This document shows positions 5,018-9,151 of a DNA stretch of 64,000 nt, in pieces. Under the pieces are notes generated by a model. That model did not search any database, was not told where the DNA came from, and saw nothing but the letters and a program-made list of their open reading frames with translations. The stretch lies in NCBI RefSeq assembly GCF_900142535.1, contig NZ_FRBE01000004.1, positions 62,001-126,000 on the forward strand. The letters are read 5' to 3'. The stretch's first letter is position 1. Every line of letters starts with the position of its first letter. The DNA is from Fibrobacter sp. UWEL. Lineage in GTDB: Bacteria; Fibrobacterota; Fibrobacteria; Fibrobacterales; Fibrobacteraceae. A program made the translations under genes and the position numbers.

Positions 5018-7726
5018 ATGGCGAAGCGTTTGAAGTTCTTGTATCCTTTTTTGACGTGGGTAGGGTGCCTAATGATGGCTACCGCCTGCGACAGTGGTTC
5101 TGATGCTACTGTCTCAGGTTCTCCCGTTGATATTGAGGATAGCGCCATTGAGGGAATGCTTCGTGTTCATTCTGCAGGTGGATTCGCCATGCTGGGGACC
5201 GACAAGAAGGCTAAGGCCATGGAACGTCCCCAAATGCGGGTGAAATTTGACTATGATTATTCTATAGGACGTTCTGAGGTTACCTGCGGTGAGTTTTTAG
5301 AACTTCAGAAGGATCGTCATTTCGATTTGAAATGTGAAAATGATTCTCTTCCCGTTGCCGATGTAACTTATTATGATGCAGTTCTTTTTGCGAATGCCAA
5401 AAGCAAGAGCCTGAAAAAGGACACCGCCTATACATACTCGTCAGCCTCCTTTGACAATGAAGGTCGCTGCACGAATCTGGAAGGCTTTGTTTATCATCCG
5501 GAAGTAGAGGGTGTTCGCCTGCCTACAGAAGCGGAATGGACCCTGGTGGCAAACAAGGTCTGGGATCCTATAAATAGCTGGAATGCGGAAAATTCCGATT
5601 ACAAGGTCCATCAGGTTTGCTCTATGGATTTGGGCTCCGACGGCATTTGTGATATGGCGGGCAACGTCATGGAATGGGTGAATGACTGGCTGGGCAATTT
5701 TGCAGATACTACCATTATCAATTATGCGGGTGCTCCCGATGGAGGCAACCTTAGGCAACGTGTCCTGAAGGGGGGCAGCTATCGCGATGCTGCAAAGGAC
5801 ATGAAACTTTATAGCCGTGGTGATGTCTATACGGTAACCTCTGAAACCCATAAGGAATATATCGGCTTCCGTCTGGCTTACGGCGCCATTCCCGATGCTC
5901 AATGGATGGACAATCGTGGGGATGCGTCTTCTAGCAGAGTGATCCCTCTGGCAAGTCCTCTTGCGATTCGTAACATGACGGGAACGTACCAGGCTAAAAT
6001 CGTCTTCCGTAATGAGGAAACGGGAAACCTGGACGTGGTTGATTTTTCCTCTGGGGTGGCTTCCGTTTTTGAAATTCGCGATACCCTCGCTGTGTACCAT
6101 CCGGTTATTTCTCCCGATGGAAAGAAGGTGGCGTTTAGTACGGGAACGGAAGGCGTTTCTGGAACATCGTCTCTTTATGTCCGCAACTTGAATTCCACGG
6201 GATCAAACCTGGTAAAGCTGGATGTTCCCTCTGCGGCGATTCCCCGTTGGATGGTTTACATGGGGGATACCTCCATCGTGTACGTTACCGATGCAGGAAA
6301 CAATGAGGATACCCAAGCTTTTTTGAAACAGTCCACCTGGCGAGTTCGCTTTAAGGATGGAAAATTTGGAACGCCTTATAAAATACTTGATGGAGCTTAT
6401 CACAGCGGGGTCGATGTCCTTGGGTCCTTTGGTATATCGGGTGCAAGAAAACTCCGTGCCCATGTTTCTGGAATCGATACCGTTTGGTTCAATGGGGATC
6501 AGGCCTGTAATGCATCTCTTTCTAAGGATGGTTCCAAGAAAACTCTATTCCTGGATTTTGGAAGCAAAAAGCGAGACGGCTATGAAGGCGAATCCTACGG
6601 TGTTCACGAACGCATCCTGATGGTGGATAGCTTGGGCAATCTTGTGGATGAATATCCTTCTCCGGAAAATTATGCCTTTGACCATACGGAATGGGTTTCG
6701 GATCATCTAGTGATTGCTAGCCTCACTGCAAATAATGGCGCCCACGAAAAAATCGTAATGGTCAACACCCAGGATTCTTCCGTGACTGAACTTGTGGAAG
6801 GAAATGAACTTTGGCATCCTGATTTCTGGTTTAAAAGCCAGGGGGATTCGGATGATGAATTGCTGGACTTCGATAGCGCGGGCGTCTACTATTCCGCTGG
6901 CATTCCGTTCTCTGGTCTGGATTTGAGAGTCAAGATGGAAGACTTCTGGACGAATAAGGACGAAGCTACTGTGGTCGCTCTTGGAAGCTCCAGAGTGATG
7001 TTTGGCCTGAATGAGAAGGCTTTTGAATCTGGAGTCCTTGTGAACATGGGGTACTCTTCCGGTGATTTCTCCGGAATGAATTTCCTCTTTAGAAACTACG
7101 TTCTGAACCATACTGATGCGAAGTTTGTTGTGGTGGAATTTTCTCCGGATTTCATGATTACGGATGATAACACCAGCTGGAATTTAATTTATCTGAGATC
7201 TCCTGGATTTCTGTATGATCAACACCATAATTTCTGGCCTGATGGGGTAAGTAATGCGTTCGTGACTGCGGTGAAGGATTCCTACAAACCGACAGACTCC
7301 TTGTCCTTACCCTACACCTACGATGAAATTCTATTGCCTACCGAAGGATGGGGCAGTCCTTTGATTTACCGTGATTCCAATGAAGTGGAGAAAACCTATA
7401 AGGAAAGCATTCTCGCCAATTTGGAAACCCTTCGTAATATGTGTAAACTGGCTAAGGAAAGGGATATTCGTCTTATCGCCCTCATTCCACCCCTAAATCC
7501 AAAGTACAGAGAAACGGGGGCTTTCGGTCTTTATGGAATCAGTAGGTCTTCTGCATTGGCCTTGATCGACTCTGTTAAGCAAATGGATCTTGTCTTGATG
7601 GATGAAAACAAGATGGGATACCATGACTACGGTAGCAACATGGCTTACAATACGGACCACCTTTCCAAAAATGGTGCAGCCCAGCTCACCCGTCGCCTAG
7701 ATTCCCTGATCCGTACATTAAAGTAG
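5018..7726 (+). CDS. Large lipoprotein: FGE-like domain, beta-propeller and SGNH-like C-terminus (TIGR02171-type family)
   Basis: A 902-residue protein. The lipobox is at Cys24 (LMMATAC). Residues about 45-290 match the formylglycine-generating-enzyme-like (SUMF1) fold: SIGRSEVTCGEFLEL, VRLPTEAEWTLVA, DMAGNVMEWVNDW, VLKGGSYRDA and IGFRLAYG. Residues about 320-600 show TolB/WD-like strands (HPVISPDGKKVAFST). The C-terminal 270 residues look like an SGNH hydrolase/acyltransferase: VALGSSRVMFG near residue 658 and TDHLSKNGAAQL near 881 match the nucleophile block and the Asp-x-x-His block. Length and lipoprotein signal agree with the Fibrobacter paralogous family TIGR02171 as I recall it. Function is unknown, and no sulfatase is nearby. 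Confidence 0.75.
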   Translation: MAKRLKFLYPFLTWVGCLMMATACDSGSDATVSGSPVDIEDSAIEGMLRVHSAGGFAMLGTDKKAKAMERPQMRVKFDYDYSIGRSEVTCGEFLELQKDRHFDLKCENDSLPVADVTYYDAVLFANAKSKSLKKDTAYTYSSASFDNEGRCTNLEGFVYHPEVEGVRLPTEAEWTLVANKVWDPINSWNAENSDYKVHQVCSMDLGSDGICDMAGNVMEWVNDWLGNFADTTIINYAGAPDGGNLRQRVLKGGSYRDAAKDMKLYSRGDVYTVTSETHKEYIGFRLAYGAIPDAQWMDNRGDASSSRVIPLASPLAIRNMTGTYQAKIVFRNEETGNLDVVDFSSGVASVFEIRDTLAVYHPVISPDGKKVAFSTGTEGVSGTSSLYVRNLNSTGSNLVKLDVPSAAIPRWMVYMGDTSIVYVTDAGNNEDTQAFLKQSTWRVRFKDGKFGTPYKILDGAYHSGVDVLGSFGISGARKLRAHVSGIDTVWFNGDQACNASLSKDGSKKTLFLDFGSKKRDGYEGESYGVHERILMVDSLGNLVDEYPSPENYAFDHTEWVSDHLVIASLTANNGAHEKIVMVNTQDSSVTELVEGNELWHPDFWFKSQGDSDDELLDFDSAGVYYSAGIPFSGLDLRVKMEDFWTNKDEATVVALGSSRVMFGLNEKAFESGVLVNMGYSSGDFSGMNFLFRNYVLNHTDAKFVVVEFSPDFMITDDNTSWNLIYLRSPGFLYDQHHNFWPDGVSNAFVTAVKDSYKPTDSLSLPYTYDEILLPTEGWGSPLIYRDSNEVEKTYKESILANLETLRNMCKLAKERDIRLIALIPPLNPKYRETGAFGLYGISRSSALALIDSVKQMDLVLMDENKMGYHDYGSNMAYNTDHLSKNGAAQLTRRLDSLIRTLK

Positions 7727-7788: not shown

Positions 7789-7817
7789 TAAGAAAAATTA
7801 GTAACGTGGAGGGTTTC

Positions 7818-8132
7818 TTGAAAATTTTGTTTGCCGATAGAGAATTGGAATTGTGTGCAACCAGCAAGTCTGTGGCGTTGAAAACCATGGGTAAGGTAAG
7901 GGCGAATCTATACCTTAAAAGAATTAGAACGATGATGTCTGTTGATAACTTTGAACAGTTGAAATGCTATTCAGGCAACTTTCATGAATTGGTTGGAAAT
8001 CGCAAGGGTCAATGGGCCTGCAATTTGGATCAACCTTATCGTTTGGTTTCAAAAGGTGCAGAACCAAATGAAACGGTTCTTTGGAAAAATGTATCTGAGG
8101 CTACTGTTCTTGAAATTGTGGATTACCATTAG
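7818..8132 (+). CDS. higB: HigB-type (RelE/ParE superfamily) toxin
   Basis: The start is placed at TTG 7818 because GGAGGG (7808-7813) is a strong ribosome binding site just before it. A GTG at 7806 in the same frame would swallow that site and has nothing upstream. The 104-residue product begins MKILFADRELELC, like other plasmid-maintenance 'killer' proteins. It has the family layout: KVRANLYLKRIRTMMSVDNFEQL, FHELVGNRKGQWACNLDQPYRLV and a final ATVLEIVDYH. HigB toxins are ribosome-dependent mRNA endonucleases. The gene precedes its antitoxin by 11 bp, the toxin-first order typical of higBA. Confidence 0.85.
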   Translation: MKILFADRELELCATSKSVALKTMGKVRANLYLKRIRTMMSVDNFEQLKCYSGNFHELVGNRKGQWACNLDQPYRLVSKGAEPNETVLWKNVSEATVLEIVDYH

Positions 8133-8143
8133 GGAGGCGTTTT

Positions 8144-9151
8144 ATGACTGAGGAAAAAGAATTGGAAATTTGGGGTGTTGTTTCCCCTGGTGATATCCTT
8201 GAGGAAAAGCTTGAAGAAATGGGGATGGATGTCAATGAATTCGCTCAACGAATAGGATACACGCCCAAAACGGTAAATGAACTTCTTAAGGGAAAGTGTC
8301 GTGTTACAACGGAAGTCGCTTTGAATCTTGAGTACGTAACGGAAATTCCTGCTAGTAATTGGCTGAATATGCAGCGGTATTACGAAGAAGATCTTATGCG
8401 AAAAAAGATGCGTGAGTCCCTCAACAGCAAGCCTTTGTGGCGTAAGGATTTTCCGTTGCCGGAACTTGCTCCCCGCAACTGGATCAATGACCTTGATAAC
8501 AAGGAAGATAACGTCTCTCCCATATTGCGATTCTTTAAGGTTTCATCACCGAAGGCTTGGATGGATTATTATCTCAGTGCCGACCTTAAGGTTGCGTTTC
8601 GAATTTCCCTTGCGGAGGCGCAGGATCCGTATGCAGCTTCGGTATGGCTTCGTCGCGGTGAAATTCTTGCGGAGGCGATTCCTATGGAAAAGCAGAACGA
8701 CAAGAAGATTCGTTCTGCACTCAAGAAAGCGTTGCCGCAATTTATTGAGTTGGCGAAAAAGTATGGCGATCAATCTACCCAAGGTGCACCTGGCGAAATT
8801 GACGAAGGTATGCAGAAACTTCACGAGTTTGGCCTGACTTTAGGCGTGAAAATTCTCTATGTCCAGAATTTCAAGAGCGCGCCTATTCACGGCATGGCCC
8901 GCTGGTACCGCGATATTCCCATTATCCAGATTCATGACCGCTTCGAAGACCGTAGGGCTTTCTGGTACACTTTCTTCCATGAGTTGTCCCACATTATTCT
9001 TCACGGGAAAAAGGACATCTTCATCAAGAATGTGTATCACGGCAACAAGAATCCGCAAAAAGAAGAAGAGGCGGACCTCTTCGCGCAAAAATGCATGGTG
9101 GATGCCGGCCTTGAAATGGATGCAAAACTGCGAAAGTTTGTCAGCGTGTAA
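8144..9151 (+). CDS. higA: HigA-type antitoxin fused to an ImmA/IrrE metallopeptidase domain
   Basis: A 335-residue protein, three times the length of a plain HigA. Residues about 15-75 form an XRE helix-turn-helix (SPGDILEEKLEEMGMDVNEF, GYTPKTVNELLKGK). The C-terminal part carries a zinc-peptidase motif FHELSHIILHG with His279, Glu280 and His283, and an EEEADLFAQ segment that may give the third ligand (about residue 309). This is the ImmA/IrrE (COG2856) arrangement. The start follows GGGAGG at proper spacing. The HTH domain probably represses the operon and neutralises HigB, and the peptidase could cleave a regulator. The 3' end overlaps the convergent HAD gene by 11 bp. Confidence 0.85.
   Translation: MTEEKELEIWGVVSPGDILEEKLEEMGMDVNEFAQRIGYTPKTVNELLKGKCRVTTEVALNLEYVTEIPASNWLNMQRYYEEDLMRKKMRESLNSKPLWRKDFPLPELAPRNWINDLDNKEDNVSPILRFFKVSSPKAWMDYYLSADLKVAFRISLAEAQDPYAASVWLRRGEILAEAIPMEKQNDKKIRSALKKALPQFIELAKKYGDQSTQGAPGEIDEGMQKLHEFGLTLGVKILYVQNFKSAPIHGMARWYRDIPIIQIHDRFEDRRAFWYTFFHELSHIILHGKKDIFIKNVYHGNKNPQKEEEADLFAQKCMVDAGLEMDAKLRKFVSV

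Follow-up and report, generated by a model that had tools for sequence, protein, structure and literature searches.

In MBOAT-SGNH systems, the MBOAT protein acylates the tyrosine of a C-terminal FXYXXF motif, and the acyl group then passes to the serine of the SGNH partner (PMC12148441). Envelope proteome studies of Fibrobacter have reported many uncharacterised lipoproteins, and in our literature search the TIGR02171 lipoprotein family was named in no paper and no function was found for it. Here, we analysed the TIGR02171 gene carried by a 64,000-nucleotide stretch of DNA from Fibrobacter sp. UWEL (the window), together with its relatives and their neighbouring genes. To a family name that carries no function, the analysis adds an architecture of FGE-like, propeller and SGNH domains and a linkage to MBOAT and AlgX-type genes.

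Domain architecture of the TIGR02171 lipoprotein

The assignment of the gene to TIGR02171 in the first-pass annotation was confirmed by a full-length NCBIfam match (residues 18-902 on model positions 8-912 of 912) that scored 1155 bits against a curated cut-off of 544. In Pfam, the window protein matched the FGE-like family PF03781 at residues 52-287 (E 6e-24) and gave a single weak match to the PD40 propeller repeat at residues 361-388, with nothing convincing in its last 290 residues. A full-length AlphaFold2 (AF2) model (pLDDT 89.9, pTM 0.84) was compared with known structures by Foldseek. The best matches of the first domain were FGE-fold proteins (TvpA 2y3c and human FGE), with PorK also among them, and the second domain matched TolB, kelch and WD40 propellers. 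The division into FGE-like, propeller and SGNH parts, already proposed from the sequence, is thus supported by Pfam for the FGE-like part and weakly for PD40, and by AF2 and Foldseek for all three (Table 1).

Conservation was followed in 111 distinct full-length members, gathered by a single scan of the collection and a single search of the phylum. The lipobox Cys24 was found in 111/111, mostly preceded by Ala, Ser or Gly; the residue after it is Asp in the window copy and Ser in most members. In E. coli, Asp after the lipidated Cys is an inner-membrane retention signal.

Catalysis by the formylglycine-generating enzyme requires two cysteines in its C-terminal part, downstream of KGGS, as located in human FGE. 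No conserved Cys was found in columns 251-271 after KGG, where at most two of the 111 members had one in any column. FGE catalysis was rejected because these catalytic cysteines are absent, and the FGE-like domain of TIGR02171, judged on its residues, retains the fold only.

Table 1. Features of the TIGR02171 gene and its product, with positions in the window.
Feature	Residues	Position	Strand	Basis or remark
TIGR02171 family lipoprotein gene, ORF, 902 aa		5018..7726	+	ATG start; NCBIfam 1155 bits
Signal peptide and lipobox		5018..5089	+	Cys24, predicted lipidated residue (MMATAC)
FGE/SUMF1-like (C-type-lectin-like) domain	45-295	5150..5902	+	PF03781; Foldseek 2y3c/FGE; without catalytic Cys pair
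TolB-like beta-propeller	about 325-605	5990..6832	+	Weak PD40; AF2 strands; Foldseek TolB 4pwz, kelch/WD40
SGNH-fold domain	about 616-902	6863..7723	+	AF2 pLDDT 94.3; Foldseek PDB matches
Block I GSSRV	656-660	6983..6997	+	Ser658 (6989-6991) directly follows beta-strand 1; putative nucleophile
Asn676, block II position (VNMGYSSGD)	676	7043..7045	+	Invariant, 111/111
Family-specific Y733-D734-x-x-H737-x-x-W740 cassette	733-740	7214..7237	+	Between strand 3 and strand 4
HDY and block V N878-T-D880-H881-L...G886	869-871; 878-886	7622..7675	+	Putative catalytic His881 at 7658-7660

Genomic context and distribution

The window copy stands alone, with miaB on one side and a toxin-antitoxin-like pair on the other. 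This pair lies directly downstream (7806-9151) and consists of a putatively HigB-like 108-aa ORF and an HTH and IrrE/M78 peptidase-domain protein. Among nine near genomes, the most similar copy (in G070) shared 75% identity with the window protein, and the others about 52% or less. In the same genome as the window, intact paralogues occur singly and, on contig C12, as four in tandem. The paralogue of contig C6 (L119 11221-13987) carries a frameshift at its KGG[ES]F motif and is either a pseudogene or an assembly error. A short paralogue of 658 aa on contig C24 consists of the FGE and SGNH parts, and a Ser-rich linker replaces the propeller.

On contig C12, the genes for an ALGX-type SGNH lipoprotein (PF16822 match, 1.4e-19), a transglutaminase-like Transglut_core2 protein (TGL), four TIGR02171 proteins and a 532-aa membrane protein (MEM532) follow one another on one strand with close spacing. 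The order ALGX - Transglut_core2 - one or more TIGR02171 - MEM532 recurs at many loci in several genera, and was also found, with more distant proteins, in L071 and L083. Copy number differs between species, and seven TIGR02171 genes surround ALGX in G091 (contig C29, 6294-28669). The family that ends the TIGR02171 operon (L118 73-1671 and homologues) is a conserved polytopic membrane family of 500-530 aa with invariant D34, D36, H62, R403-x-G-G and D420-x-R422. The 532-aa protein had no informative match in Pfam, NCBIfam or PDB, and one member has TPR repeats; the D34/D36 and RxGG...DxR motifs might point to a GT-C-like enzyme.

Within the genus Fibrobacter, four regions (L124-L127), picked because both matches were close together, have an AlgI-like MBOAT gene on the same strand at a distance of about 8-10 kb upstream. 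The fullest arrangement was seen in G044 (L134, 502-13808), where MBOAT - ALGX2 - ALGX - TGL - MEM532 - PD40 - TIGR02171 are on one strand within 13.4 kb, with two opposite-strand ORFs between PD40 and TIGR02171. In other families, the cluster reads MBOAT - ALGX2 - ALGX - (TGL) - MEM532 - PD40. In seven genomes (G031, G032, G020, G038, G044, G016 and G022), two ALGX-type genes come immediately after the MBOAT gene, and in several of these the 532-aa membrane family and the PD40 propeller gene come next. Both ALGX and ALGX2 retain the AlgX-family DTHW and GDS blocks. The C-terminal FXYXXF motif (F[LI]YFQF) and the WHG His were present in 16/16 MBOATs checked (15 of this type and one of a second type), so the linked system is a good candidate for envelope O-acylation.

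In G098, the MBOAT gene is on another contig, and outside the genus TIGR02171 and MBOAT were on separate contigs in the searched genomes other than G044. Their separation in many genera, like the position of the window copy outside the cluster, counts against a common pathway. The MBOAT of the window genome is also on a different contig from the window gene; a reading of the MBOATs of this genome as unlinked, since they lie on other contigs, was dropped when relatives showed linkage. A second MBOAT gene of the same genome, directly behind those of two GDSL/SGNH proteins (L123 4505-9711, contig C2), probably belongs to another MBOAT-SGNH acylation operon.

The first-pass annotation had described the family as one of Fibrobacter. 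This proved too narrow, as matches above the curated cut-off were found in 86/168 Fibrobacterota genomes from several families, and in 0/14 control genomes. The titles of some member-bearing assemblies give no hint of gut origin. Outside the phylum, the collection scan returned FGE-domain matches only, with the exception of one contig (L050). On this contig, titled as a Bacteroidales MAG and probably mis-binned, are TIGR02171 genes of the Fibrobacter type together with the gene for the 532-aa membrane protein.

Presence of a full-length TIGR02171 match and of an MBOAT orthologue was scored at E <= 1e-100 for each, thresholds that were set after the tables had been seen. In a genus table assembled by hand, 18 of 41 genera had both, 1 had TIGR02171 only, 5 had MBOAT only and 17 had neither (Fisher 3.6e-6), a count that scores as positive genus g22, known from a single genome (G015) with a weak MBOAT match and, at the start of a contig, intact ALGX genes. 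With g22 taken as MBOAT-negative, the strict count was 17/2/5/17 (p 2.5e-5); the genomes share one phylum and so are not independent samples. Within the genus Fibrobacter, 65 genomes had both, 2 had TIGR02171 only, none had MBOAT only and 13 had neither, a figure that overstates independence since the 13 double-negatives may be one clade. Both states were found within each of families f1, f4, f5 and f7. The same genomes lacked the ALGX orthologue, as did a few incomplete assemblies. Presence is nested, in that TIGR02171 rarely occurs without this MBOAT (three genomes, G150, G066 and G132), and MBOAT occurs more often without TIGR02171. Membership of TIGR02171 in the O-acylation pathway is likely.

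A role in fibre degradation, suggested earlier from the sequence, was not borne out by this distribution. Its specific form, a surface esterase acting on plant cell-wall polymers, appears very unlikely to us. In its favour, acetylxylan esterases with an SGNH domain are common, other such enzymes of the SGNH superfamily are found in F. succinogenes (PMC9487903), the gene of the short paralogue (L121 9166-12533) is directly behind a GH16 and ricin-lectin gene whose stop it overlaps, and a GH5-like cellulase gene adjoins the C12 array. Against these stand the occurrence of the family across the phylum, its co-occurrence with an envelope O-acylation machine, and the absence of a carbohydrate-binding module from the Pfam matches of the window protein.

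Fold and candidate active site of the C-terminal domain

Residues 606-902 were modelled alone by AlphaFold2 with 74 sequences (mean pLDDT 94.3, pTM 0.92). In this model, strands alternate with helices (DSSP), GSS comes right after strand 1 and His881 right before the last helix. Nearly all of the best 50 PDB matches (Foldseek), including the first nine, were SGNH proteins, among them PAF-acetylhydrolase (PAF-AH), DltD, GDSL acylhydrolases, PatB and TesA; a few entries were engineered scaffolds or CgnD. A C-terminal SGNH alpha/beta/alpha fold, as had been proposed for the last ~270 residues, is near-certain from this prediction.

Comparison by sequence profile placed an acetyltransferase first, with a weak match (6vjp, E 0.058, an OatA catalytic domain). 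DltD (PF04914) was the most frequent Pfam match, in 7/74 members (best 1.2e-5). It was matched neither by the window domain itself nor by eight chosen members, so that the DltD matches stem from members outside these eight. An earlier comparison of the domain with DltD and AlgX holds in part. The DltD fold match was recovered and AlgX-type genes are in the same operon, but PF16822 (AlgX/AlgJ) was not among the matches listed for the window protein or the members, and Ser precedes His, so that the order is not the permuted H-S order of AlgX. The TIGR02171 SGNH profile also aligned poorly with those of the operon ALGX proteins (hhalign E 0.36 and 0.0076), and profile homology to them was set aside, as it was missing in one comparison and weak in the other.

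The two motifs pointed out in the first-pass annotation, GSSRV and DHLSKNG, were located at residues 656-660 and 880-886. Invariance of a whole Ser/Asp/His triad had been anticipated; it was found for Ser658 and His881 (each 111/111), and not for the Asp. Gly656, Asn676, Asp734, Pro825, Pro828, Gly840 and Gly886 are likewise invariant in 111/111, and the family-specific cassette is conserved at D734 (111/111), H737 (108/111) and W740 (105/111). Position 880, at -1 to the His, is Asp in 90/111, and the canonical -3 position (878) is Asn in 60, Asp in 50 and Ser in 1; an acid is present at one or the other in 107/111 members. HDY (869-871), about 95-97% conserved, could also supply the acid. The block III Asn is absent, the conserved residue after strand 3 being D711 (99/111). 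Without this Asn and with an Asp that varies, the domain might have reduced activity or none. Ser-His dyads, DXH for DXXH and a block III residue other than Asn are all on record for SGNH families (PMC9487903), so both features are compatible with activity, and the domain is likely an active Ser-His enzyme.

Mean pairwise identity across members was lower for the SGNH domain (38%) than for the FGE (50%) and propeller (54%) domains. This divergence is compatible with a changing acceptor or acyl specificity, and equally with relaxed constraint. It is also one of the points that would suit an inactive SGNH domain serving as a binding or scaffold module, in a protein acting as an adhesion or assembly platform, like the FGE-fold GldK/PorK in type IX secretion. 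The lost FGE cysteines, the variable triad Asp and the PorK match point the same way. We regard such a platform as quite unlikely, since Ser and His are kept in 111/111 across domains of 38% identity, and the short paralogue keeps the FGE and SGNH parts and drops the propeller.

Alternatively, the protein may be an O-acyl-editing esterase of the same pathway, trimming acyl groups that the MBOAT-AlgX machine puts on a surface glycan. The operon and co-occurrence evidence applies to such an enzyme as well, the nearest folds are hydrolases (PAF-AH), with DltD appearing only from rank 12, and an outer-membrane location would suit it better. The window genome has about seven TIGR02171 copies for each copy of this MBOAT, an excess that also favours an esterase and speaks against a transferase. 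Conversely, the block III Asn of classical SGNH esterases is missing, and the weak Pfam and profile leanings are toward DltD and an acetyltransferase. An editing esterase seems unlikely, and a terminal transferase is the more likely of the two.

Proposed function and comparison with known systems

We propose, with about even confidence, that TIGR02171 proteins are lipid-anchored SGNH enzymes of the envelope that act as terminal acyltransferases in an MBOAT-SGNH O-acylation pathway of a self-made surface glycan. The basis, drawn from sequence and prediction, is the architecture, the fold, the invariant Ser and His, the AlgX-type operon, the co-occurrence with MBOAT and the acyl-shuttle motif. 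From it we infer that the SGNH domain would be active, by transfer rather than hydrolysis, and which acyl group, acceptor and handover from the MBOAT would be involved. Acyl-CoA would be the donor from which the AlgI-like MBOAT of the inner membrane loads an acyl group, probably acetyl, onto the Tyr in the FLYFQF tail at its C-terminus. From there the group would pass to the active-site Ser of the TIGR02171 SGNH domains (here Ser658, activated by His881) and of the AlgX-type SGNH proteins, which would hand it on to hydroxyls of the glycan. Binding or selection of the acceptor, or of partner proteins, may fall to the propeller and to the FGE-fold domain, itself non-catalytic, and each paralogue may serve a different acceptor.

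An extension of this proposal, possible although rather doubtful, is that one MBOAT feeds multiple lipid-anchored terminal acyltransferases per genome, with the FGE and propeller domains as acceptor arm and the paralogue setting the acceptor, an arrangement that would be special to the Fibrobacterota. Two further points speak against a transferase: TIGR02171, if located in the outer membrane, could not take an acyl group from an inner-membrane MBOAT, and the pathway already has transferases in its AlgX-type proteins. The family is large and multicopy in most Fibrobacter, and its fold, candidate catalytic residues and partner pathway lead to a testable question, namely whether the Fibrobacterota have extended surface O-acylation by an MBOAT-AlgX machine with arrays of three-domain SGNH lipoproteins, and with what effect on life on plant fibre.

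Among known systems, GldK/PorK and TvpA (2y3c) have the fold of the N-terminal domain in common with TIGR02171, but are not known to contain a propeller or an SGNH domain. DltD (PF04914), of the DltB-DltX-DltD D-alanylation system, is alike in its SGNH domain, which has the Ser near its start and the His near its end, and is among the PDB fold matches, but it is an enzyme of teichoic acids in Gram-positive bacteria and lacks the two extra N-terminal domains of the TIGR02171 lipoprotein. AlgI-AlgJ-AlgX alginate O-acetylation resembles the cluster, which has an AlgI-like MBOAT with an FXYXXF tail and two ALGX-type proteins, although the SGNH domain is circularly permuted in AlgX/AlgJ and not in TIGR02171. 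Finally, PatA-PatB peptidoglycan O-acetylation is alike in its MBOAT-SGNH logic and acyl-Tyr motif (PMC12148441), and PatB is a fold match; the domain architecture differs, and paralogous arrays are found on the TIGR02171 side.
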